64,000 nucleotides of DNA from Pontederia crassipes (lineage: Eukaryota; Streptophyta; Magnoliopsida; Commelinales; Pontederiaceae): contig CM060184.1 of assembly GCA_030549335.1 (NCBI GenBank), positions 42,807,909 through 42,871,908 on the forward strand, written 5' to 3'. The position numbers and the translations under genes are program-made. The notes below the pieces were generated by a model. It was given only the letters and a program-made list of their open reading frames with translations, searched no databases and had not been told where the DNA came from. The first letter of the stretch is position 1; each line of letters begins with the position of its first letter. Shown here in pieces: positions 2,781-50,833 of this stretch.

Positions 2781-3469
2781 AAGCCAGAGTATTTGGTAGA
2801 TCTATGTCATAGAGGCCTTTGCCTCCCTTTCGTGCCATATTCTCTATACACACTTTATGCGAGTCACTCTCAATCTTGCGTAATAAGCCATTAATCACTT
2901 GCATAGGTCATGATTGGAAATATGGATCCATCCATATGAAATAGTTGCATGCTCGTTGTTGCTATACAATAAAATAATAGTTGGATACACATGGAAATTA
3001 CAAGATAATAGAACCATGAACTCATTTTAAAACTCCATCCAAAAAATGGACATTCATAAAACCTACGACCAGGATTATTCTCAGTTCAAGATGTTCATAT
3101 TACGGCTTCTTGTTGGCAATGACATTCGAGTATTGTAATCTTGTATATCCAATAATTCTTCACATGTGCAATAAGGTAAATAAGTAAAGAAGAAAAATGA
3201 TACAACATGAAGGAGCATGTGAAGCACATATTTTAAAACTGAAATTATTTACTTATTGTGCTTAAAATGGATGGCTTTCATAATTGAGACCAACAGACTG
3301 CACTAATGACCATGCAATCATCTACATTCCCTAAAGAAATTATGAACAAAGTCCTAAGATCAATATAATGTACAGGGACAAAGATTTCATGAACAAGAGA
3401 TTCTTCTATATTGCATGTACATGACATTGTTTAGTTGAAGGGGAGTGCGACACAGAAACTAAAGTAATT
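2781..3469. other. Unannotated AT-rich intergenic stretch
   Basis: Nothing recognisable was seen on either strand: no extended open frame, no terminal repeats and no array. Confidence 0.5.
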
Positions 3470-9178: not shown

Positions 9179-11381
9179 ATATTCATATGAAGTATGGAAA
9201 AAAATGGAGGTTGGGACCATCCCATTCATCCTGACCGTCTTGCTTAAATCTCAGTCTGTCCGATTGAGACAGAATGACATATTTGACATTTTTCTGAACC
9301 ATCAGTTTTTTCTCACAAAAAAACTGATTCTCCCCGTTCGTTGGTTTCCTCAGTTCGTTGTCTCATTGTTTCCCCATGCTGGTGGGGATGACACCCTGAT
9401 CCTGCTCGCCATGCCATGACACCACTTGTCGTCATTGCCGCCACGATTCCCTCACGCCGCTCGCCCCTCTGATGCTCACTTGCTGCTACTACTCGCCCCT
9501 CCGACATTAGTCTGACCGCCACTCACCCAGCCATTGCTCACTTGACCTCCGCATCGTGAGATCGCGAGCTCCACTAGGGCAATGAGGGGTCTGACATCGT
9601 TGCTCACCCCTCTAACGCTCACTTGACTGGCGCTCTATAATATGCCTACGTTAATCACATATGATTAAATGTATTAATATTATATTATGTGATAATTTGT
9701 TGCCATGATATATATGTTAAAGTGGAAGGTCCAAGTTCAGGTGTGAGAGCGCAAAAAGTGACAAAATTTGCCTATGTCATGAAAAGATGATTTTCAAAAA
9801 TTTTAGAATTAAGAAAATTAAAGTCCCGGTAGTTGTTACCCTATGTTAATGTATGATAGCTATGATTTTTAATAATTTTTAGGTAAAGTGTTGGTTATGT
9901 TAAATGGTAGCGCAAAATCGAAAAATCAGAAAACACTATCGATTTTGTCCTTCGGGCAAAAGTTCAGATTTCGATTTCTTTGGAATTTAATTTTATAAAT
10001 ATTTTATTTGAATCCAAATGGGGATAGTTTCTTATTTACATTCAATGTATTAAGTAAATTAATAAATAATAAGCAAAGTAATAAGCCATCAATCCTTATC
10101 CTTGAAGGGTAGTGGGAATAAGTGATATCATTGTAAATAAGTGAACTTTCAAGGGTAGTTTAGGAATTTCACCCTCCAAAATATATAAGCCTTCAATCCT
10201 TATCCTTCTATCACCCATTAGCACAACCTAGGATTCTCAAACGAGTGCAAAAAGGCAGCAACAAGAGGAAGGGAACCAAGGGAGTAAACAACATATCAAG
10301 GGTTCATCTTTAGGGATTCCAATTCAAGTAAGTTGGAAACTCTCTCCTATGAATTATCCATATGAAGTTGGATTAAAAAGAGTCATCCATGATCTATGAT
10401 ACCTTTCTCCCATCTTTCATTTCATATGATTATGAAAGAGGAACTTGTAAGATGAACAAAAAATCCCAACTAGTGCTGAAATTGAAAGCTTTAATTATGT
10501 TATTATATCTTTTGAATCTCCAAAAATTATAAAATTACATATGGAAGTACTTGTTGAAGTCTATTTTCCATGGTCTTTGGAATTAGGGTGATTGGATACT
10601 CACACACGAAGTTATATATGAAACCCAAGGGGTCACTTAGGCTATTCCAAAAAGTAGTTAGGTTGAAATGATAATTCGACCATAAATTCCACCTAAAGTT
10701 TCATGTTCTAATTTAAAGAATAGAAAAATATATATAAGAGATCTGTAGTAATTAAAATCTCATGAAAATATTTGTGTACTAGGAGTTATAAGTTTTATAA
10801 GGCACAAACCATAGTATGTCAATTTCGAAAGTATGACAAAACATCTCCAAATCTAAATTTTTTTGTAGATTAATATAGAATGAGAAAAATTGTAAGATCG
10901 ATACTAATTCAAGCTCAGGAAGTCTAGTTACAAATTTGAATTCATGTTATAGGATGTACATTCAGAAAGTTATGAATTTTATACTAAGAACTATGTAGTC
11001 TGTTAGGGTTCTAAAGTGAAGCAGAGTGTAGATTAATTCTATCATTTTCTAAGGTTATTTAATAATGAGTTAAATTATAAGTTTTATGTTGATTATAGTT
11101 GATGAAGTCTTCTGTCATTGAAAATTAGTTTCACATCGTTAGGAGCTGTACACTAATTCTTATATATTTTATATTGTAGATTGTGCAATCTGCTACATGC
11201 AAATAGAAACAAAGTGTTTGTGCTTATATGACCATATGATGTGAAAAATTAGACATTGATAAATGGTTTTTCTTGATTACATTATACATGATATAATATG
11301 AAATTATATGTTATATGAATATGTGTTATGTGCGCGCATAAAGTGTATTAATTGCTATATGTTCAATTATTTATTACAAGA

Positions 11382-12144: not shown

Positions 12145-13033
12145 TATTGTTACTCTCAACAATTTTCAATTCAGTAGACTAGTCCGTGGTCATGCTTGAT
12201 AATCCTCTGTCAGGATTGGAAGCACTTCTGGTGAGAGGCATATATGAGCCTAGGTTTTTAAGTCTCTTTGACAGGACTAAAGAGAAGTGTTTTAGATGTG
12301 TATTATTAGACAAAAGTAGAAATGTCTCATTGTAATATGTGATACTACTTTTGTATAAGTACATAGTGTTTGATGTTTACTTATTTTGAATGATATAATA
12401 TCATATGGTGTGGTTTGCATATTTTAACTTCCACAAACTATATAAGATTACATGTAATAGATGATGACCTATGAGTTAAACCAAAGTTTAAATTGGGGTC
12501 GTGACACGCTCGCCCTGCCATTGCTCGCCTGACCAATGCCGCTTGCCCTCCGTCGTCGTTTGCCCCTCCGACAAATGCCTAACCACCGGTGCTCGTCCTA
12601 ACGCTCGCTTCTGCTGCCACTTGCTTGACCCTCCAATGCTAGTCTGACTATCGCTCGCCCTACTACTGCTCGTCTAACCACCGGCGCTCTCCCTCCGCCA
12701 TTGTTCGCCACTCCGACACCTCGCCTGACAACTGCTGCTCGCCCCTCCGATGCTCGCCCTACTACTGCTCATTAGGGCAACGAGGGATCAAATACAGATG
12801 AGGAAAATCAATTTTTTGCCTGACCTCCGCCGCCGCTCACCCCTCTGTGACTCGCCTTGCCATTGCTCCGCTAGGGCAACGAGGGATTAGACGCAAATGA
12901 GGAAAATAATTTTTTTTGTGAAAAAAATCACTAGTTTGAAAGAATGTGAAATATGTCATTCCTCCTCAATTGGATGGACTAGGATTTAAGCAAGACAGTC
13001 GGGACGAATGGGATCAACCCGACCTCCATTTTC

Positions 13034-13521
13034 ATCCCGCCCCATGCTTTGCCAATTTTGACCCCGACGTCCATTGCTCCGACGCCCAATTCCAATGCCC
13101 TGCTTGTCCGACGCCCAATACACTTGCTCTACTGACCTCCGATGCCCACTGCTCGGCCGACTACTCTGACACTCGATGCACTTGCTTCGCCAACCAACCC
13201 CGACGCCCATTGCTCGGTCCACTGCTTTGACGTCCGACGCCTTGCTTCTTAGACGCCCAGCGCACTTCCTCTGCTAACCGACCCCGATGTCCATTGCTCG
13301 TCCGACCCTGACGCCTTGCTTCTTCGACGCTTGATGCACTTGCTACGTCGACCGACCCCGACGTCCTCTGCTCAGCCCACTGTTCTGATGCCCAACACCA
13401 TGCTTCTCCGACGCCCGACGCATTTGCTCCGTCGATCGACCCCAACACATTTGTTCTGCCGTCGACCGACCATGACACATTCGCTCCGCCACTGCCTGAC
13501 GCATTTTCTTCTCCGACGCCC
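13034..13521. repeat. C-rich degenerate minisatellite, left part
   Basis: Irregular tandem words CTCCGACGCCC, GATGCACTTGCT and CGACCCCGACG recur with an uneven period. Both strands show open frames here only because the repeat lacks stops; they are not credible genes. Element A inserted at the end of this stretch, and the repeat resumes at 32162. Confidence 0.75.
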
Positions 13522-13976
13522 TGTCACCCCCAACTCCGTGACTAAGTTCTAATCCCAATTATCATACTCTTAGCTATGTTTAGCAATTCTAAAAATAAAA
13601 TCGGCAAAATCTCCTCCCTTACTTATCTTATGTTATTTGTCAATACATACAGAAGACACATATATAATCATCAAAGTTTAATAAAAAACTATAAGATAGG
13701 ACATTCGCATATTGTCATTATATTTTTTTTCACAAACCATCTCACATATAACCCCCCAGGATCAAGTCTTATACAACCTTATAAAAAATTTCTCACAAAC
13801 TTAATAACAACATCTAAGACTATCTATTACATATGCATGCTTCAAAAAACAAAAGTGAAGGGGGATTAAAATGCTCCAGTGGCTCGACCTCTTCTATATG
13901 CAGTAAAAACAAACTCCGAGTCGACTCAACTCGAGAACTTACGAGTATCTGAAAAAAGCATTTAAAATGGATATTA

Positions 13977-13997
13977 TGAGCAACAATCATTTGCTCA
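13977..13997 (-). promoter_or_regulatory. LTR hairpin TGAGCAA/TTGCTCA (element A, left LTR)
   Basis: A seven-base perfect stem, 13977-13983 with 13991-13997, loop of 7. The right-LTR copy is at 29793-29799 with 29807-29813. Confidence 0.6.
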
Positions 13998-14206
13998 GTG
14001 AGTGAAATAAAAGTACAACATAGGGGAACAATACGAGTACATATATCATTTAAATAACCACATTTCTTTCATATGAGAAAACATTTAAAGCATAGCACAT
14101 GTAACATAATTTGTCAAATCATATGAACTTTCATAGAAGTAAAAGTAACTCAAGATATCATAATTTTCATATTTAAACTCCACACATGTGTCATTGCACA
14201 TACTCA

Positions 14207-14475
14207 TCATGGGTCAATACGTATCCCTCTATGATCATGTGTCATACAGTTAAGCAGAGCTTCATAATAAAGAGTCACTGATACGCAGAGCAAATCATGA
14301 GTCAATACGTATCCCTCTATGATTTGTGTCATACAGTTAAGCAGAGCTTCACAATCAAGAGTCTCAGATACGCAGAGCAAATCATAGGTCAATACGTATC
14401 TCAATCATGATTGTGTGCCATCAAATCATGATTCTCAGATACGTAGAGCATATCATGGGTCAATACGTGCACGCA
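14207..14475. repeat. Tandem array of about 88 bases inside element A LTR
   Basis: Repeats of GTCAATACGTATC...ATACGCAGAGCAAATCAT recur at 14213, 14301, 14388 and a shorter unit at 14458. The same array is in the right LTR at about 30023-30300, so it predates the insertion. Confidence 0.8.
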
Positions 14476-15623
14476 GAGCAGCCCCCAAAGGGCAAAGACA
14501 CCCGATATACGCTCCAAAGGCTTCATGTATATCGAATGCGGTCCCAAAGACCTTTTTCAAACAGCGTGGCTAATGAACACATGGAGTTTAACAATATCAA
14601 AATACACATGTCATAATCTCATATCATTATCAAATAAAACTTATTTTTACTTCACAAGCATTGTTCTCTGAAAATATTTTTGTATAAGATATTACTCCAT
14701 CTCATATGAAATCCTTGAAACATATCATAAATACTTTTCATAGCGCAAGATATATTTCAATAATAACAATAATAATATTTGCTTGAGGTAATACCATAAA
14801 TAAAACAATTAACATATAACACTTTGCCATGTTATAAATTTACCCACTCACCTTGTATTTTATCACTTCGAGAAGGTTTATTAGATTTCCTCCCTTTCAC
14901 TTGCAACTTGAGGTTTTCCTACAAACAATAATGTCTTTTTACTCCCCAATCACTAGTAAGGTAATATGCAATGCATGCTCATGATGTATGAATGCTTATG
15001 CACCCTAAAATGCATATAACCTCCTCTAATACCAATTTCAAGCTTCATGTATTTATATTCATAAGCTATTCCACACTTGGAACTTTTCAATTCCCCAAAG
15101 CATAACCATGTGTTATTTCAGAATTTCAGACTGAGCGTCTGTCAATAAATAATTCATAACTTCTTAACCACGTGGGAAAATCTTATAATTCTGGATTAAT
15201 TAGAAACTAGGCATATTAAGGTTTTTAACCCCCAAATATCATTATCAAATTTCAAGTGAGTAAGTTAGGACATCCAAAGCAATCTGACCTCGGGTTTGTG
15301 CCCTAGCAGACTGTATGTTACTGAAATATTGATTTATATATTTCTTAGTACTTATCCCTTTAACTATGGCATAATTTTGCTGAAAACTAAACTTTTTTAA
15401 TAATTTGTCATAAAAATTAGAGAATTTAACTCTCTGTGTAGACTTATAACAAAAATAATTAATTCGGGTCACAATCTGTCAATGTCCTGGAATCTGACAG
15501 AAGCGTCACTATGAAATGAAAATTTTATTTCTCCCAAAATACAAGTTCAAATAGGATTATGCCGCCTCTCACCGAACCCTTGGAATATCTATTTAAGCAT
15601 ATCCAAATTTCAAACCCTAATTC

Positions 15624-17645: not shown

Positions 17646-20600
17646 TTTATGGTATCAGAGCCTAAAGTCAGGACTCTCTTGACGTCCTAGTGTATAGAAT
17701 AGTATGGTATTGGTTCATGTGCTATCGCCGAGCAGTCACCACACCCTCCACCATAAAGTACAAGTAAGATCTTTCTTGCTTTGGGTTATTCTTTATTGAT
17801 GTATTGATATGTATTTCACATGAGTGGTTGATTCCTAAGGAGGTTATACTATATGGTAGGAATCAACTTAAATGTTATTAGTGATTAGACAAAAAAGGGT
17901 TATAAAGGTTACAAACAAATTGGAACAAAATAAGTAACAGGCATGTGGATAAATATACCTACGTGAAAAATGAGTCTTACAAATATTCAAAGAATAAAAT
18001 ATAAGAAACGATTATGTTTCTTATAATTCATATTTTCCATCTCTTTCATGATCGTTCTATTCACGGACTTCTTCTGCTGACTGCAACAGTATGAAGAGGA
18101 AAATGAATAGGCATATCAGTTGCAAAGAGATATATATTTAAGAAAGAAAACGAGGGAATTATAGGAGTAAACAAAAGATTTGCCTCACACAACAAGTAGG
18201 TGTGAGATGATATGAAATCAAGCATGCTTAAGTTATGATTTATTGATATGACTCATGTCATTCTATTGATTCACCAACATAGGGGTTTAATGAATTATCT
18301 TATATGTTTATATTGATAAGTAGGGACCCATAACGCTTTTTGCACCTTAGACTTCATGTTGATAAAGGTCCTAAGCAAATCCAAATTAGTTATATAAATT
18401 TCTAATTAGATTATCTTATATTGGAAATAGGAATTAGAATTATTAATCATGTTCAAGAATGTAATATTGATTAGACAAGAATCTAAGTATTAGTGAGCTG
18501 TCCAAGAATCATGTAGGGATGGGCAAATATAGAAGTTTAAAAGGTTCGAAGGTCACATTGATATGAATAAATGTTAGAAGAAATTTTCAATAAGTAAGCG
18601 ACCGTTTGAGTTAATCGAACATTTAGATCTAGCATACTCATACACATATGTACATATAACATAGCATACTTATAAATATATAAAGATCAATAAATAAATA
18701 GACCTAATTAACTTAGTTTAGTATGTAGTAGATTTGAAAATTTATTAATATGAAGTATATGTTTTATATAGCCATTATTAAAGCTCTATCATCGCAAAGT
18801 AAATATATTTTCAAAATAAACTAATATGGTTGATAAAAGAATTATATAAGAACAAACAAAGCATGAAAGGGTTAAATGAATGTGAGAAATTTTGAAAAGA
18901 TTTAAAGTCTCTTAATTGAGTCATGCTTAAGGACGATATGAGCCCCCAACATTGTCTTAAAAGATCAAAACATTAAGTGAGAAAATTTTAGAAAGTATAA
19001 GGGGTTAGGGTATAGTATGAGGAATTTTATAAGTCCCCTACAAAGTTACTGGAGAAGTAAGTTATGCACCTGAGAGGGATGATTATGAAGTAAACTATAA
19101 ATTTTAATTGAATTATCTTGACTATGGATATATTTATTAGTTTTTATAATAATGTTCAAATCATATAGGGTAATTAATCATATATCATGATTGATAGTTC
19201 AAGAGGGAAAATAAAAATCCTATATATGTTTAGATAATGTGTTAACCAAGCCATCAGATGATACATAAAATGTTCTCTAAAATGCAAGATATAAAATGTA
19301 GAACGTTCTCTGACATGCCTCAACGTCAATACGATGAAAAAAAAATTGTCTTGATCAAGTGGACCACTCATGATTTGATCATAGGTTTTATATATGGATC
19401 GATTTTTCCCTTTCGACCTTAAAGTTATCCTGACCCTCTCCCATGTACTACAAGATATTGTTAATACAAAGGATAATGAAATGAAGTGCAAAGAAGCAGA
19501 AGGATTGATTGTCTTCTGTTTTGTTGATTGTTTGGTTTTCCTGTTTGATTGTTTGAATTTATTCCGTGTTCACTTGCATTCATGATGTTCTACTAAGGAC
19601 TTATGTTAGATAATGTGCACAGATGGTTTTGTTCATTAAGAACTAGATTGTACTATATGATCGACCCCTCATCATAGCTATTATTCGACCTTAATATTGA
19701 TTCAAAGTGCTTCAAGATACTCAAGGAAAGAACTTGTTGTGATAATATATAATCATTTTCCTCCTATGAAATTATATGATTTGATATTGCAAGAAACAAA
19801 TCAATGTAAGTCAAGTAAGTTATGTCTTCCACTCAAAAGCTAAATGATTATGATGATGACTCTTAATCCATGATATTTGATTATGTTAGATCCTTAGGAT
19901 TCTTTCTAAATGATCCAAAATTCATGATGATTAAGGATGAAGTACTCTATGAATATAAGATGATTCCAGGTTGTGACCATTTACATACTCTCATATGGCC
20001 TCTTCATATCTTTTTCATATCACACTTACATTATCCATACTGTTAAGATGACGAAGTATTGATTACTTGATCAAATACCTATTCTTCATCTTATATGTGA
20101 TCCCCTTTTGTATCATTGATCTGATCATCAATCAAAGAAGTATTCTTTTTTTTATGATGATGTTTAGAGTAAGGTCACATCAAACATAGGTCATCGTGAA
20201 AGTTATTGATCTAAATTGACATGATTCCATTATCAATTTTATCGAATCATATGATGATGCCATTATCTATGATGATGGACAACGTTCTTAGTGAGCCTAT
20301 TGATCCTTCCACGACATATGCTACCTAATAAGGATGATGACCCTATGGAAATAACTTCATACCATAAAGTCCATGCTAGTGATACTAATGACGATGGAAG
20401 ATAAGATCTTTTCCGCACATCGGTTAGAGACTTTTTAGGACGATTGTGATGGGATTCCTATTTGATTCTACCTCCTAAGATGTATAAGTATTATGCAAAA
20501 AGAAGAAGATAGTTACCAGTATTCAAAGATTTAAAAGTTATAGTTAGAAGTTGAGTGTCATATCGACCTCATTTCAAGCATGACCTTGATTTCCAAGGCC

Positions 20601-21540: not shown

Positions 21541-21578
21541 AAAATTCGAGGACGAATTTTCTTTTAAGGGGGTAAGAA
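21541..21578 (+). promoter_or_regulatory. Hairpin plus polypurine tract before element B 3' LTR
   Basis: AAAATTCG (21541-21548) pairs with CGAATTTT (21553-21560) around loop AGGA. The polypurine tract TTTTAAGGGGGTAAGA follows directly, and the LTR starts at 21579. Elements A and C have the same layout with nearly constant spacing. Confidence 0.75.
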
Positions 21579-23665: not shown

Positions 23666-24384
23666 AATTCACTCTATCCTAACCGTGCCCTAATTAACAA
23701 ATTGAACTTGTATCAGACTCGGGACAAGATGAGTGACATGCGAAGTTAAGTTCATAACTTTCTCTATAAAACTCCTTTTTAGGTGATTCCAAAGGCCATG
23801 GAATGCTAACTTCGGCTAATGAACTATACAAAATTTTATAATTTATGATTCATTTATCTCGTAGTAATGATTCTCTCAATCAGAAGAACAATTTTCGGAT
23901 CAAAACTCACTTGGGACAACCGATTTTTCCCATGTCGTTTCGCTCGAGTTCTTCCTCTGGTAATTTTTCTACGGTGAAAAGATAATGTTAAGTGGCTTAT
24001 ATATTTTTTCAGAATTTTCTGAGGTCTTATGGGAGTTTAGAAAAATATCCCTTTAAGCAGCTCTCACCTGTCTGCTTCAGCTGCTTGGAACTTAAGTGAT
24101 GGCCAATCACATTTTTTGTCATAACTAAGTGTTTTAACCCTAATTAAGCTTACTTAATTCTATTTAAACATATATATTATAATATTTAGAAATTTTATGA
24201 TTTATTCCTAATAATCCTATATAATTATTTTGTAAAGTTTATCGATAATTAAATAATCATTATGTACTAATTGAATATTAATTACTATATATAAATATCA
24301 CTAAATGGACATGCAAACTAACTTAGTATGTTAATTAAATGCATGATTATGTACAAATGATGTTTCTAGGGCACCTCCGTGACA

Positions 24385-24422
24385 ATTCTCCCCTCCTTAA
24401 AAAAATTTCGTCCCCGAAATTT
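24385..24422 (-). promoter_or_regulatory. Hairpin and polypurine tract before element A 3' LTR
   Basis: On the minus strand AAATTTCG (24415-24422) pairs with CGAAATTT (24403-24410) around loop GGGA. A polypurine tract, AAGGAGGGGAGAA, runs to the LTR boundary at 24384. Confidence 0.75.
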
Positions 24423-29339: not shown

Positions 29340-32161
29340 TGTCACCCTCCTCCGTGACTAAGTTCTAATCCCAATTATCATACTCTTAGCTATGTTTAGC
29401 AATTCCAAAAATAAAACCGGCAAAACCTCCTCCCTTACTTATCTTATGTTATTTGTCAATACATACAGAAGACACATATATAATCATCAAAGTTTAATAA
29501 AAAACTATAAGATAGGACATTCGCATATTGTCATTATATTTTTTTTCACAAACCATCTCACATATAACCCCCCAGGATCAAGTCTTATACAACCTTATAA
29601 AAAATTTCTCACAAACTTAATAACAACATCTAAGACTATCTATTACATATGCATGCTTCAAAAAACAAAAGTGAAGGGGGATTAAAATGCTCTAGCGGCT
29701 CGACCTCTTCTATATGCAGTAAAAACAAACTCCGAGTCGACTCAACTCGAGAACTTACGAGTATCTGAAAAAAACATTTAAAATAAGTATTATGAGCAAC
29801 AATCATTTGCTCAGTGAGTTGAATAAAAGTACAACATAAGGGAACAATATGAGTGTATATATCATTTAAATAACCACATTTCTTTCATATGAGAAAACAT
29901 TTAAAGCATAGAACATATAACATAGTTTGTCAAATCATAAGAACTTTAATAGAAGTAAAAGTAACTCAAGATATCATAATTTTCATATTTAAACTCCACA
30001 CATGTGTCATTGCACATACTCATCATGGGTCAATACGTATCCCTCTATGATCATGTGTCATACAGTTAAGCAGACTTCATAATAAAGAGTCACAGATACG
30101 CAGAGCAAATCATGGGTCAATACGTATCCCTCTATGATTTGTGTCATACAGTTAAGCAGAGCTTCACAATCAAGAGTCTCAGATACGCAGAGCAAATCAT
30201 AGGTCTATACGTATCTCAATCATGATTGTGTGCCATCCAATCATGATTCTCAGATACGTAAAGCACATCATGGGTCAATACATGCACGCAGAGCAGCCCC
30301 CAAAGGGCAAAGACACCCGATATACGCTCCAAAGGCTTCATGTATATCGAATGCGGTCCCAAAGACCTTTTCCAAACAGCGTGGCTAATGAACACATGGA
30401 GTTTAACAATATCAAAATACACATGTCATAATCTCATATCATTATCAAATAAAACTTATTTCCACTTCACAAGCATTGTTCTCTGAAAACATTTCTGTAT
30501 AAGATATTATTCCATCTCATATGAAATCCTTGAAACATATCATAAATACTTTTCATAGCGCAAGATATGTTTCAATAATAACAATAATAATATTTGCTTG
30601 AGGTAATACCATAAATAAAAGAATTAACATATAACATTTTACTATGTTGTAAATTTACCCACTCACCTTTTACTTTATCACTATAAGGAGGTTTATTAGA
30701 TTTCCTCCCTTTCGCTTGCAATTTGAGGTTTTTCTACAAACAATAATGTCTTTTTACTTCCCAATCACTAGTAAGGTAATATGCAATGCATGCTCATGAT
30801 GTATAAATATTTATGCACCCTAAAATGCATATAACCTCCTCTATACCAATTTCTAGCCTCACGTGTTTATATTCATAAGCTATTCCACACTTGAAACTTT
30901 TCAATTCCCCAAAGCTTAACTAGGTGTTGTTTTAGGATTTCAGACTGAGCGTCTATCAATAAATAATTCATAACTTCTTAAGCACATGGGAAAATCTTAT
31001 GATTCTGGATTAATTAGAAACTAGACATACTAAGGTTTTCAACCCCCAAATACCATTATCAAATTCCAAGTGAGTAAGTTAGGACATCCCAAGCAATCTG
31101 ACCTCAGGTTTGTGCCCTGGCAGCATGTATGTCACTGAAATATTGATTTATATATTTCTTCGTACTTATCTCTTTAATTAGGGCATAATTTTCCTAAAAA
31201 CTAAACTTAATTAGTAATTTGCATAAAAATTAGAGAATTTAACTCTCTGTATAGACTTATAACAAAAATAGTGAATTCGGGTCGCAATCTGTCAATGTCC
31301 TAAAATCTGACAGAAGCATCACTATGAAATGAAAAATTTATTTCTCCCAAAATACAAGTTCAAATAGGATGATTCCACCTCTCACCGAACCCTTGGAATA
31401 TCTGTTTAATCATATCCAAATTTAAAACCCTAATTCACTATATCCTAACTATGTCCTAATTTACAAATGGAACTTGTATCAGACTCGGGACAAGATGAGT
31501 GACATGCGAAGTTAAGTTCATAACTTCCTCTATAAAACTCATTTTTAGGTGATTCCCGAGGCCATGGAATGCTAACCTCGACCAAATGAACTATGCAAAA
31601 GTTCATAATTTTTTATTTATTTATCACGAAGTAATGATTCTCTCAATCAGAAGAATAATTTCTGGATCAAAACTCACCTGGGACAGCCGCTGTTCCCGAT
31701 TTTTCCCATGTCGTTTCGCTCGAGTTCTTCCTCTGGTAATTTTTCTACGGTGAAAAGATAATGTTAAGTGGCTTATAAAGTTTTTTCAAAATTTTCTGAG
31801 GTCTTATGGCGATTTGGAAAAATATCCCTTTAAACAACTCTCACATGTCTGCTTCAGCTGCTTGGAACTTAAGTGATGGCCAATCATATTTTTTGTCATA
31901 ACTAAGTATTTTAACCCTAATTAAGCTTACTTAATCCTATTTAAACATATATATTATAATATTTAGAAATTTTATGATTTATTCCTAATAATCCTATATA
32001 ATTACTTTGTAAAGTTTATCGATAATTAAGTAATCATTATGCACTAATCGAATAATAATTACTATATATAAATATCACTATACGGACATCCAAACTAACT
32101 TAGTGTGTTAATTAAATGCATGATTATGTACAAATGATGTTTCTAGGTCACGTTCGTGATA
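29340..32161 (-). repeat. Element A 5' LTR
   Basis: 2,822 bases; on the plus strand it starts TGTCACCCTCC and ends CGTGATA. It carries the tandem array (about 30023-30300) and the TGAGCAA/TTGCTCA hairpin (29793-29813). It is intact where the partner LTR is split. Confidence 0.93.
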
Positions 32162-38611: not shown

Positions 38612-41600
38612 AAGGACTTTTTGGCAAACCTGATCGTCATCCCGATCTGAGAGTACGCTGTAGCGTTGGGTATGGACTAGTTATCTTGTCATGATGCCTA
38701 CTTACACTGCCGAGCAAAGAAGATTGTGATTGGAGCACTAGGAGGACCTCAGACTATTGTCAGAGGCGTGCCACTAAAACTGGGTAAGGTCCTGGTATCG
38801 GCTATCAAAGCCCAGAAACTACTGAAGAAAGGATGCCGAGGATTCTTGGCGAGCGTGGTTAAGGATCGGACTGAGATAGTATTGAGGTGGTGAAGGAGTT
38901 CCCGAACGTTTTTTCGGATGATGTTTCGGGACTACCACCACGACGGGAGATCGACTTCCGCATCGATTTGGCACCGGGTACTGCACCTATCTCAAAGGCA
39001 CCATATAGAATGGCTCCAGCATAAATGTTGGAATTGAATACCCAAATCCAAGAGTTGTTGGATAAGGGATTCATCTGACCGAGTGTCTCCCCATGAGGCG
39101 CTCCGGTATTATTCGTGAAAAAGAAGGACGGATCTATGCGACTGTGCATAGACTATCGAATGTTGAACAAGGTCACCATAAAGAATAAGTACCCACTACC
39201 GAGAATTGATGACCTATTCGACCAATTGTCTTCGGCAAAGGTGTTCTCGAAGATCGACTTGAGAAGTGGTTACCATCAGCTTAGGATAGCTGATGACGAT
39301 GTGCCGAAGACAACATTCAGGACGAGATATGACCACTATGAGTTCTTGGTGATGCCGTTTGGGCTGACCAATGCCCCGGCAGTCTTTATGGATTTGATGA
39401 ACCGGGTGTTCAGGCCATATCTGGACAAGTTTGTGATCGTATTCATCAACGATATCTTGATTTATTCGTCAAGTCCGGAAGAACATGAGGAACATCTACG
39501 AGTTGTGCTACAAACTCTCCGAGAGCACAAGCTGTATGCCAAATTTTCAAAGTGCGAATTTTGGCTAAAAGAGATAATGTTCCTTGGACATATCATCAGT
39601 AAGGATGGGATATCAATGGACCCTACCAAACTGGAAGCAGTTGCCAACTGAGAGCAATCAAAGAACGTATCGGAAATCAGGAGCTTCCTCGGACTGGCAG
39701 GATATTACCGGAAATTTATACAAGATTTCTCCAAGATCGCGTCGCCATTGACGAATCTCACAAAGAAAAGATTGACGACGGTGCCTATTCTAACCATACC
39801 TTCAGGCCAAGGAGGTTATGTGATATATAGCGACGCATGTGGCACCGGTTTGGGGTGCGTCTTGATGCAGCATGGGAAGGTCATCGCTTACGCATCAAGG
39901 CAATTGAAGAAACACGAGAAGAACTACCCGACGCACGATCTTGAACTGGCAGCCGTAGTCTTCGCCCTCAAGATTTGGAGGCACTACCTCTATGGTGAGG
40001 AGTTCGAGATTTTCACAAATCACAAAAGCCTGAAGTACATATTTTCTCAACGTGATCTGAACATGCGTCAGAGGAGATTGATAGAATTTCTAAAGGATTA
40101 CGAGTTTGCCATCAGCTATCACCCAGGAAAGGCAAACTCGGTCGCCGATGTCCTCAGTAGGAAGTGGGTTGGATGTCTAGCATGCCTGCGGGTGAGTCGC
40201 TGGAATATGATCGATTGTATTATATAGGCCAGTCCAATGACCAGTAATGATGTACGGATTATGGCACACCTCGACATGCAACCCGAATTAATGTTAAAGA
40301 TTGGGAAGGCACAACAGAATGACAATGAGTACGACCACCTACTCAGGTTGTGCGAAAAGATTTCTGCCGACTTTACGGTCTCAGATGGAGTCGTCAGATA
40401 TAGGGGACATTTGTGGGTCCCTGACCATGATGGACTAAGAAGACAGGTGCTTGATGAATGTCACAAATCGGAATTCGCCATTCATCCCGGAAACATGAAA
40501 AAGTATAAGGATTTGCAACGGACCTTCTGGTGGAACAACATGAAGAAGGACATAGCAAAGTATGTTGCAAAGTGCATAGTATGCCAGCAAGTGAAGGTTG
40601 AGTATCAAAGGCCATATGGAGTACTTCAGGAACTTGGAATCCCATAATGAAAATGGGAAAAGATAACGATGGAATTTGTTACATGGCTTCCAAGAACACA
40701 GCAGGGCCACGATGCGATATGGGTAGTGGTGGACCGATTTAGCAAAGCGGCCCACTTCATTCCCATCAAATGGAAACAGTCCGTCGAAAGCTTGATGGAC
40801 ATTTACATTAAGGAGGTTATCCGACTACATGGAGTGTCAGTCTTCATTGTGTCGGATAGAGATACACGATTTATAGCAAAATTTTGGCGGAGCATTCAGA
40901 GTGCCTTTGGAATGAAATTGAACTTCAGCACAGCGTTCCATCCTCAGACAGACGGGTAGTCTGAGCGCACCATACAGACATTGGAAGATATGCTCCGAGC
41001 ATATGCTTTGGACTTGAGTGGCAGTTGGGACACTCATCTCCCACTGATTGAGTTCGCATATAATAACAGTCACCACTCTAGTATTGGCATGGCACCCTTT
41101 GCTGCCATGTATGGAAGACCATGTCGCTCCCCTATCTGTTGGAGTGAGGTAGGAGGACGATAGTTCTTGTCAGAGGAAATGTTAAAGCAAACCATGGAGG
41201 ATGCTGAAAAGGTCCGACTCATTAGAGAAAGATTGAAGGCAACATTCACCAGACAGAATACTTATGCTGACAAGAAACGAATAGAACAGATCTTCAAGGT
41301 TGGAGATCGTGTGATGCTGAAAGTCTCCCCGATGAAGGGAGTAATGAGATTCAGCAAGAAGGGCAAGTCGAGCCCTAGGTATGTAGGTCCATTTGAGATA
41401 CTTGCATTGATTGGAGATGCAGCCTGCATGTTGGCGCTACCGCTATTTTATGGACACATGCATAACGTCTTCCACGTGTCGATGTTGCGCAAGTATCTGC
41501 ATGATGATGCTAATATAGTGAATATGGAAGAATCAAACTTGAATGTGGACATGACATATACTGAACAGCCTATAGAGATATTGGAATACCAAACTAGGCA

Positions 41601-41718
41601 TCTGAAGAATAAGATGATACATATGGTGAAAGTGGCATGGACACATCATAGAGATGAAGATGCTACATGGGAATTGGAAGATGAAATGAGAAAGGATTTT
41701 CCAGAATTGATTAAATAG
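38612..41718 (+). pseudogene. Element C pol: protease end, RT, RNase H, integrase
   Basis: From 38612 the frame shows the protease C-terminus (NLIVIPI, ALGMD), the linker [20 protein letters not shown], then RT (39115-39651) with [25 protein letters not shown] and the active-site box FINDILIYS. The first catalytic D is N here (AAC at 39448-39450). RNase H is 39748-40227 ([21 protein letters not shown]). Integrase is 40237-41163 with the CIVCQQ zinc end and DD35E spacing; a TAG sits two residues before the E. The tail is 41167-41718 with SPRYVGPFEILALIG, NVFHVSMLRKY and VAWTHHRDEDATWELEDE. About ten stops interrupt it. Confidence 0.93.
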
Positions 41719-41740: not shown

Positions 41741-41777
41741 AAATTCGAGGACGAATTTATTTTTAAGGAGGTTATGA
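41741..41777 (+). promoter_or_regulatory. Hairpin plus polypurine tract before element C 3' LTR
   Basis: AAATTCG (41741-41747) pairs with CGAATTT (41752-41758), loop AGGA; the polypurine tract AAGGAGGTTATGA ends at the LTR start. Confidence 0.75.
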
Positions 41778-48292: not shown

Positions 48293-50833
48293 TGTAACAC
48301 CCCGAATTTTACCCCCAAGTTGTCGAGGACATTTGGGCCATTCGACTGTGTTAGCCCATTCGCCATCACATAATCATAATAAAATATGATTTTCTATAAA
48401 CTCAACGGAAGCATAAATCCATTAAATAAGATAAAATAATTCCTTTGAAACACAGCGGAAGACTTCGGTAAAATATCAAAAGTAATGTTATAGAATTTAA
48501 GCTATCACTGATAACTAATAAAATATCTTAAAACCATAGTCCAAAACATCGCTTTCAAACGTAATCAAAAGAATCTAAGACAATTGACTCAACATCTTAG
48601 ACCATCGTGTAATCTTATTCGTCATGAGCTGAGTCATCATCATCCATAACTTTATGTACCTGCATGGATTCAGGATGCAGGGGTTTCCCCAGTTAGAGTA
48701 TGTAAAGACCATGCATGCCATGGTATGATCCTATACATGATACTATATGATATGCATCATCATCTTTATATAAAGGAAATAAACAATATGCATGCCATGT
48801 CTTAACATATGATCTACATATCAAACATCAACATCATTCTATCATCCTGCACATAAGTAATTGCATGGAAGACATGTAATCATATCATCATACATAAAGT
48901 ATGGACATTCATCTCAATCATTCATTCAATTCATAGGCATATAAGTGGGATGCACTTACCATAACTATTGCCTTCATAACTCTCCTCAGGGTTGCTTTAT
49001 AACCTCTTGGACTTCCACTTTCGTGGGACATCATTCCATAACTTTCCTCAGGGTTGCTTTATAACTCTTTGGACTTCCACTTTCATGGGACTTCATTTCA
49101 TTCGATCGATCATTGGCCCCTTCCTATTAATATTATATCTTCCAATAGTTGGGACTTATGTCGTTGCCCTCTCAATAGACTAGCTAGGCCTAGGAGACAA
49201 TGCTCCCCTCTCACCCGAAGGTGACATCAGAATGCACACACTGTTACCAATGTATGTAATGATCATTCTGGACTCTAGCCTAAGGGCGACATCGGAATGC
49301 ACACACCATTGCCGATGTGTGTAACGATCATTCCGGACTCTCACCCGAGGGCGACATCGGAATGCACACACCATTGCCGATGTGTGTAACGATCATTCCG
49401 AACTCTCGTCCGAGGGTGACATCGGAATGCACACACCATTGCCGATGTGTGTAACGATCATTCTGGACAATTATCCGATAAAGGGCCGTAGAGGGGCGAC
49501 ATGTAACATCATTCACAACTGTGTTCATTATGCTTTTCAAACAACAATCATTTACGTCGCTCGATTTTCATACTTTAACCTATTTACGGCTGTCCATGCA
49601 ATTTGTATATCTAGGTTCATATACAATCATCAATCAGTAGTACATAATAGTAAATATCTTAAAAATAACATAAATATAATATAAATCAGTTTTTTGATCT
49701 AACACGATCGTTCTGGGACTGGCTCGGCCGTGCCAATGTCCTAGAAGTCCGATCTTCCACCCGAAAGTCTCAATTTTTGAGATCTCAATTCCAATAAACA
49801 TAGTTTAAAACATCATAAATATTCAGATATGATCTCTTAGCATCTATGCATCATAAAACACATTATAACATGCACAGTATTAACAAGAGTTGGGATTCAT
49901 ACAACTACTAGAATTTATTCTATGCACAGTATTCTGGCAGTAGTCACTAAAATATTAATAACTTAACCTATACGTGTTCTTTTCAGGTGATTCTAATTTT
50001 CATAGAAGGATAACATGAGCATTTGACTTGGGAATAAATTTCAAACCATATTTAGTATTTCCAATTTACTACATGTTTTACAATTTGATCTCGCTATTAC
50101 CCGAGACAGAATGATACCAGTCTAATTTTTGGATCATAACTATTTGTATACAACTCCAATTCATGTGACACCAATCTCTGTGGAAACTAGACTTCGAGAG
50201 CTTTCCATCCATATATTATTTATAATTTTTGGATAAGAAAAATCTATCCAAACAATCATTATAAGACAGTCATGAATTTTCGAGACAGTACAACACCAAT
50301 CCGATGTTTTGATCATAACTATTCATACAGATCTTCAAATTATATGAAACTAGTTTTAGTGGAAACTAGACTCGAGAGCTTTCTATCCATATATTACTTG
50401 CAATTTTTTGATAAGAAAAACCTATCTGAATAATTGATGCAACTACACAATCGTGCGATCCTAACATCTAGATCTAATCATGAATCAATAAAAAATGATT
50501 TCAGATCTAATGAAACTCATAAATTCCTCAAACAAATCCCTAATAGGAGCAAGATTCCCTATTACTCTCAATCTAATGAATAAAACTTTGAGAGGAGAGA
50601 GAGGGGTTGGATCCCCTTTACATACCTTGATCTTAGATCTTCCTCCTCTTTCTTCCTCTTTCTCCTTCTCCCTGATCTCCTCTTTCTTTTTCCTCAAGCC
50701 CTAGCCGCCAAGATGTGGAGAACAATGAGAGAAAGAGAAAGAAGAGATGCCTTATATAGGGGGAAACCATGAGGGTTTGATAAAAGTCCAAATTGCCCTT
50801 AAATGAATATTTGAGAAAATTTGGGATTTTACA
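48293..50833 (-). mobile_element. Solo LTR in a GC-rich island, minus strand
   Basis: Flanked by the 5-base duplication gacgg (48288-48292 and 50834-50838). The 2.54-kb body runs TGTAACACCCC to GGATTTTACA. Orientation is set by GGATTCAGGATGCAGGGGTT near 48665, the reverse complement of the matching spot in element C (CCCTGCATCTGGATTCATGC near 37223). No internal domain is present. It carries a four-copy 65-base array. Confidence 0.88.
49205..49466. repeat. 65-base tandem array, four copies, each a potential hairpin
   Basis: Units start at about 49205, 49270, 49335 and 49400. Each contains GGAATGCACACAC and, after CATTGCCGAT, GTGTGTAACGATCATTCC, so the two halves can pair. There are no unique spacers. 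Confidence 0.85.

Follow-up and report, generated by a model that had tools for sequence, protein, structure and literature searches.

The window, that is, the whole stretch of 64,000 nucleotides of the Pontederia crassipes genome that was analysed, contains a nest of two LTR retrotransposons and a third, separate one, designated here as elements A, B, and C. Element A lies on the minus strand, and its 3' long terminal repeat (LTR) is split into two pieces (13529-15623 and 23666-24384) by element B, which extends on the plus strand from LTR to LTR between 15624 and 23665, inserted with a 5-bp target duplication AATTC, and carries at 17650 the primer site TGGTATCAGAG, of the initiator-tRNA-Met type. 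The other LTR of element A is located at about 29345-32150, which gives an LTR length of about 2.8 kb. Element C lies apart from this nest and retains pol remnants on the plus strand upstream of its hairpin (39097-41718; Pfam, on the frames at 39097-39651 and 41164-41718 only), namely, a reverse transcriptase (RT) in the first frame (RVT_1, 8.9e-38) and, in the second, an integrase SH3 domain of the Tf2-1 type (SH3_Tf2-1, 3.4e-21) together with a borderline chromodomain (PF00385, 24.8 bits against a cut-off of 25.1). By its RT and Tf2-1-type integrase SH3 domain element C is probably a plant Ty3/gypsy chromovirus. The window also includes a tandem repeat with a 65-base period (49208-49467) and an inverted repeat (9196-9323 and 12910-13037) with 128-base arms that are 75% complementary and 3.6 kb apart.

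In each of the three elements a short hairpin stands before the polypurine tract (PPT), with a T-rich spacer between them. In element A this is the 8-bp hairpin AAATTTCG-GGGA-CGAAATTT (24403-24422, minus strand), which lies in the last codons of the pol frame and precedes a PPT at 24386-24398 (minus strand) and a 3' LTR that begins at 24384 with TGTCAC. Element B carries the 8-bp hairpin AAAATTCG-AGGA-CGAATTTT past the pol stop (21541-21560, plus strand), the PPT AAGGGGG (21566-21572, plus strand), and a 3' LTR from 21579 with the first letters TGTAAC, and element C has the 7-bp hairpin AAATTCG-AGGA-CGAATTT, also past the pol stop (41741-41758, plus strand), the PPT AAGGAGG (41765-41771, plus strand), and a 3' LTR from 41778 that likewise starts with TGTAAC. 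A first-pass annotation had placed three such hairpins before the PPT, at 18, 18, and 19 bases from the LTR, and had noted a T-A pair swapped for A-T between the stems of A and B; when the sequence was read directly, all three hairpins were found at the positions given, the distances to the LTR starts were exact, and the swap proved real and was assigned to the fifth pair counted from the loop. Since the hairpin belongs to the pol frame in A and follows the stop in B and C, a coding constraint common to all does not explain it. As isolated RNAs the hairpins of A, B, and C fold at -5.9, -4.5, and -3.6 kcal/mol, with z-scores of -3.2, -2.6, and -2.5 against shuffles, respectively, while in a 94-nt context the z-scores are +0.8 for A (no better than shuffles, the hairpin being absent from the centroid fold), -1.7 for B, and -3.1 for C. 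No Rfam match at the gathering score was obtained for the window or for three further loci (L154, L155, and L156).

All genome searches were performed in one plant genome of 1.13 Gb. The exact A-type 20-mer is present there in 297 copies and the reversed pattern in none, while a pattern of chromodomain edge, PPT, and LTR start alone detected 1105 sites (control 29). The pattern of PPT and LTR start alone, which is blind to the hairpin, detected 373 sites (control 10), and the first 30 of them, many being copies of the same families, were taken as a hairpin-blind sample. A stem of at least 6 of 7 pairs around a four-base loop, with its end 16-21 bases upstream of the LTR, was found in 27 of these 30 sites, the exceptions being L040, L048, and L060, and the full stem of 7 pairs in 23; in 500 rounds of shuffling the corresponding numbers were on average 4.0 (maximum 10) and 0.4 (maximum 3). 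Of the 27 hairpins, many of which are again copies of the same families, 22 have the loop AGGA. By the GNRA criterion the loop GGGA fits and AGGA does not, so that the hairpin loop is GNRA-like where R is G; in the tip searches described below the loop was fixed beforehand.

An unrestricted scan for the best hairpin favoured weak pairings of T-rich stretches with the PPT at many sites and was replaced by a count at fixed distance with a shuffle control. By exact offset from the LTR, full 7-pair stems occur in the 30 sites 7 times at 18 and 16 times at 19, the other offsets being 1 (4 stems), 5 (9 stems), 13 (1 stem), and 37 (1 stem). With the bar lowered to 6 of 7 pairs the offsets 3, 4, 5, and 13 reach 19, 13, 21, and 10 of the 30 sites; the near-offset stems (3-5) are such weak T-rich pairings with the PPT and fold far less stably, the mean folding energy being -1.9, -2.3, and -1.8 at offsets 18, 19, and 20 against -0.1 to -0.3 at offsets 1-5.

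Variation of the stem was studied in three further sets of sites. The pair-3 set was obtained by searching for the tip CGAGGAYG ahead of a PPT and an LTR start, with one base of the 3' arm unlike the window stem (63 sites, control 3; 60 used), and the pair-4 set with the same tip search and the changed base at position 4 of the 3' arm (30 sites, control 2; 22 used). The other-PPT set relied on CGRGGACG before a different PPT type (475 sites, control 5), from which 30 sites were used out of 100 of the 475, chosen mostly for differing 3' arms with the 5' arms unseen. Twelve of the resulting 112 sites (L081, L087, L091, L092, L097, L098, L107, L110, L115, L116, L118, and L184) were set aside for an LTR distance above 25 or a TGTTA start, which leaves 100 element-like sites, and L187-L196, hand-picked for unusual PPTs, enter no count. 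Clustering by flanks, which do not align between classes, gave 28 family representatives; relatedness was handled through this clustering and a class-level permutation instead of a tree. Because the search patterns impose the tip and the loop, their conservation is judged only from the hairpin-blind sample.

At many of these sites the 5' arm, unseen at selection, is complementary to the new 3' arm. Six stem classes were distinguished, which have the tip CG-RGGA-YG in common while the outer stem was left free. Class 1 is AAATTCG/CGAATTT with the variants AAATTTCG/CGAAATTT and AAACTCG/CGAGTTT, and class 2 is CTCAACG/CGTTGAG; classes 3 (GTTGTCG/YGACAAC) and 4 (GTTGCCG/CGGCAAC) differ from one another by one swapped pair, and classes 5 (GTCACCG/CGATGAC) and 6 (GGCGTCG/CGTCGCC) are each mismatched at one position, the third pair counted from the loop. 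The five free pairs (pairs 3-7) are intact in 478 of 560 cells in the 112 sites, in 448 of 500 in the element-like sites, and in 127 of 140 in the representatives. In the latter, slid registers retain 43, 79, and 67 of the 140 pairs, and re-dealing of the 3' arms retains 64.2 on average (sd 9.1), with none of 2000 deals reaching 127. Per element-like site (n = 100) no free pair is broken in 58 cases, one in 32, and two in 10. When each class is represented by one hand-chosen site, 28 of 30 free pairs are intact, while all 720 arrangements of the six classes give a mean of 16.2 and the best other arrangement gives 27.

A covariation check on a broad alignment had been set beforehand as the test of the proposal that the pairing itself is selected, and within this one genome, with families clustered by flanks, it returned strong covariation. 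The alignment comprised 31 rows (the 28 representatives and the three window hairpins), of which 27 are distinct, and was compared with 500 shuffles. The covariation score was 0.760 against 0.227 in shuffles (sd 0.031), and paired cells amounted to 88.9% against 58.8%, neither value being reached by any of the 500 shuffles; slid registers scored at most 0.220. Of the five measures in this test two were not distinctive, namely, two-sided changes, seen in six of eight pairs (5.8 in shuffles, reached by 416 of 500), and further pair types, which number 20 (17.3 in shuffles, reached by 30 of 500). The proposal of a selected pairing is thus supported both by the covariation and by the free pairs of the representatives. 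Since the stem has been rewritten several times and is still paired, the shape of the hairpin itself seems to matter for the copying of the elements.

Single changed pairs give a more divided picture of the opposite expectation, that variants breaking the stem should be as common as those keeping it. Of the 49 element-like sites of the pair-3 set, 20 have a Watson-Crick pair and 25 a G-U pair at the selected third position, and 4 have lost the pairing there. Of the 22 sites of the pair-4 set, 7 have a Watson-Crick pair, 4 a G-U pair, and 11 a broken one at the selected fourth position, so that half of this set carries a one-sided break. The broken cases are mostly single copies of class 1, and such one-sided breaks are as expected for decaying copies. 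The changes at CpGs speak against equal frequency. Both loop-adjacent pairs of class 1 are CpGs, and deamination in duplex DNA is expected to produce equally often C-to-T changes, which leave a G-U pair, and G-to-A changes, which break the pair. In the whole genome 1634 intact class 1 copies stand before AAGGNGG, and this number rises to 2286 when C-to-T forms are included (control 8) and to 1873 with G-to-A forms (control 0), that is, 652 changes that keep a G-U pair against 239 that break it, a ratio of 2.7. For comparison, pairwise counts in the flanks of 30 such elements were 473:343 upstream and 169:138 in the LTR (1.2-1.4 to 1). The excess of G-U-keeping changes over the flank ratios points to RNA and not to duplex DNA; it supports RNA pairing but is no proof, since the copies share their history.

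The distance between the hairpin and the LTR is also nearly constant. The stem ends 17-19 bases before the LTR start in 89 of the 100 element-like sites, which are themselves limited to at most 25, in 90 of the 112 sites overall, and in 25 of the 28 representatives, while the search windows permitted about 11-51. From the stem end to the end of the G run there are 12-14 bases in 86 of the 100 element-like sites. The sum of spacer, purine run, and remainder is steadier than its parts (sd 1.3 against 3.8 expected if they were independent), part of which follows from the definition, as the borders of the purine run are arbitrary. The folds of B and C hinted that the PPT pairs with pyrimidine stretches upstream of it; this idea was considered and rejected (0.56 against 0.55 in shuffles; above its own shuffle in 14 of 28 representatives).

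The hairpin is carried by elements with and without genes. In the GTTGCCG class, L197 encodes protease, RT, and RNase H domains with the frame open through the hairpin, and L201 encodes integrase domains. In the GTTGTCG class, L156 is flanked by repeats that are 1.8 kb long or longer, and the 3 kb that were read contain no sense frame above 101 residues. L200 has an exact primer-site motif TGGTATCAGAGC at its position 3052, then 78 bases, the hairpin, the PPT, and the LTR, with 128 nt from the primer site to the 3' LTR, and 3.2 kb read in the three sense frames contain no open frame of 90 amino acids. Because this locus stops within the 3' LTR, the 5' LTR was deduced from a second, exact 19-base copy of the LTR start and is put at about 181 nt; with LTRs in the range of 100-250 nt, a tiny interior, a primer site, and a PPT it is a TRIM. 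L154 is TRIM-like by the same layout, with LTRs of 177 and 178 nt (85% identity), an interior of 103 nt, the CTCAACG hairpin, and a PPT, the primer site being only degenerate; no target duplication is evident in it. Because the hairpin is retained by gene-less elements, it should act in cis.

Several other carriers deserve mention as separate observations. L154 and L155 have a block of 103 bases (hairpin, PPT, and LTR start) that is 99% identical, with no other similarity found between them, as if a 3' module had been exchanged between elements. At L042 a frame resembling, by eye, a CCHC zinc knuckle stands shortly upstream of the 3' end and the hairpin, suggesting a gag-only non-autonomous element. 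An aspartic protease-like frame (PF13975) lies beside the class 5 hairpin of L199, perhaps another element with gag and protease only.

One family constitutes counter-evidence. In a chromodomain search that served for sampling lineages, with 150 of 3715 candidates scored, one family was dominant (L009-L038), with long open frames (about 1540 codons in many) and the LTR start TGTCCCGGGG. It was read in 20 of 30 loci and gave 12 sequence forms, 8 of which were examined for pairing; of the 30 loci, 12 were inspected by eye, and L022 and L037 appeared to be ordinary chromodomain genes. Its PPT region shows at most 5 of 8 pairs around GGGA in the 8 forms and folds weakly. Before the PPT the family retains a sequence like GGGACGTCGC-GACTT, as in class 6, with much of the pairing lost. 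The hairpin is therefore regarded as widespread and not as universal or everywhere indispensable.

The module thus has the order of a 7-8 bp stem with a four-base purine-rich loop (mostly RGGA), a short spacer, the PPT, and the LTR. The preferred reading, to which a probability of roughly 0.55 is given, is that the hairpin is a cis-acting RNA structure, kept by its shape, and that it belongs to the plus-strand priming module in many Ty3/gypsy and gene-less elements of this genome, the gene-less ones presumably borrowing the proteins of other elements. It is the position of the hairpin that indicates a role in plus-strand priming, while the suggested role in PPT use or in the behaviour of the RNA 3' end is only indirectly favoured, by the constancy of the spacing and by the retention of the hairpin where genes are missing. 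The hairpin would act in the single-stranded genomic RNA while the minus strand is made: reverse transcriptase would copy the LTR edge and the PPT and then reach the stem, which may delay the enzyme or offer a contact for Gag or RT while the RNase H part is still over the PPT, and RNase H held there could help the primer to be cut at one exact place. In yeast Ty3 RT the polymerase and RNase H sites are reported about 13 bp apart (PMC5371799, in the part available), a spacing close to the 12-14 bases between the stem end and the end of the G run given above. A more specific and rather doubtful version takes the hairpin for a molecular ruler, in which a stem one enzyme length upstream stalls the Ty3/gypsy RT and RNase H cuts exactly at the PPT edge. 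Against a priming model it can be said that pausing alone leaves the conserved loop unexplained and that the fixed distance could merely be inherited.

Because of the purine loop and the packaging need of gene-less elements, the main rival is a Gag-binding or packaging signal, in which the exposed loop would be bound by the zinc knuckle of Gag and the proximity of the PPT would be incidental. Retroviral packaging stem-loops with purine loops are known, and the AGGA loop of the hairpin-blind sample (22 of 27, with many same-family copies), the retention by elements that need packaging in trans, and a zinc-knuckle match in the A region of the window (19.8 bits, just below the cut-off of 20.8) agree with it; however, packaging has no obvious need for a fixed spacing of 17-19 bases to the LTR, and this explanation is considered unlikely. 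A role in the 3' UTR, through messenger stability, export, translation, or escape from siRNA and not through reverse transcription, is improbable: the hairpin does stand in the transcript shortly past the pol stop in B and C, but in A it is within the coding frame, gene-less elements keep it, and its spacing is fixed relative to the LTR.

Two further explanations dispense with selection for RNA pairing. Quasi-palindrome correction by template switching is known, and a mutational origin, in which near-palindromes are perfected in this way and paired changes arise together, would make such changes easy. It leaves unexplained the constant loop, the constant spacing, and the presence in 27 of 30 hairpin-blind sites, and intermediates with G-U (L131, L161, and L186) or with a mismatch (L160 and L169) were found, as stepwise change predicts; at pair 4 of L131 there is T-G, between T-A and C-G, while L186 (class 2) has G-U at pair 8 and L160 has C-A at pair 7. 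Mutation alone is accordingly held to be quite improbable. Slightly less credible still is a signal residing in the primary sequence, whether of DNA or of RNA, namely, the CGAGGACGAA box, with the stem as the by-product of a palindromic binding site. The tip CG-RGGA-YG common to the classes and the abundance of class 1 (1634 intact before AAGGNGG) would fit such a signal, but the arms outside the tip differ strongly between the classes and are still complementary, and G-U states outnumber breaks. The first-pass annotation had called this box known, and it was not found by sequence in the open-licence literature among the matches listed.

The nearest relative of the feature in the literature, as far as the available parts of the cited sources go, is the inverted repeat of Sireviruses, for which help in correct primer formation was proposed (PMC2829016); plus-strand primer structures were proposed for Ty1/copia elements in the same source. 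Both are secondary structures with an exact position at the primer of the plus strand. The Sirevirus repeat has its left arm upstream and its right arm within the 3' LTR and encloses the PPT in its loop (PMC2829016), whereas here the right arm is not in the 3' LTR, both arms being upstream of the PPT, the loop has 4 nt without the PPT, and the pol-bearing carriers are Ty3/gypsy. A systematic search for PPT-containing hairpins was called for in the accessible part of PMC3601003. In yeast Ty3 the PPT lies within a base-paired region (PMC11381356, partial text), in contrast to the PPT here, which has no extra upstream pairing (0.56 against 0.55). The U-box or T-box of retroviruses, Ty1, and perhaps fission-yeast elements is likewise cis-acting just upstream of the PPT but is, in the portion of PMC10085805 at hand, a linear T-rich stretch and not a hairpin.

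TRIM elements, with short LTRs, a tiny interior, a primer site, and a PPT (PMC6934838), resemble L154 and L200; inverted repeats of bivalve TRIMs have arms of 9-10 bp placed 25 bp apart, and no RGGA hairpin beside the PPT was found described in the available part of that source. Retrozymes are non-autonomous too, sharing with Ty3/gypsy only the primer-site and PPT/LTR-start boxes, and carry hammerhead ribozymes (PMC4918200, in part). No match to the hammerhead RF00008 was obtained beside the hairpin, but the control genomes were equally without a match, so the result does not indicate that such ribozymes are absent. Among the matches listed from the open-licence literature, available in part, neither a description of this hairpin nor one of any covarying hairpin that plant Ty3/gypsy elements carry outside the PPT was found.

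If the hairpin holds in other plants, it would provide a short, searchable mark of the 3' boundary for the annotation of degraded and gene-less elements. It would also allow TRIMs to be assigned to the autonomous families responsible for their movement, and it would offer a model, open to direct testing, of the way in which RNase H locates the end of the primer. Should the molecular ruler be true, the hairpin would be among the few cis signals on which the copying of a gene-less TRIM in trans depends, and it would determine the set of elements that have their machinery in common.
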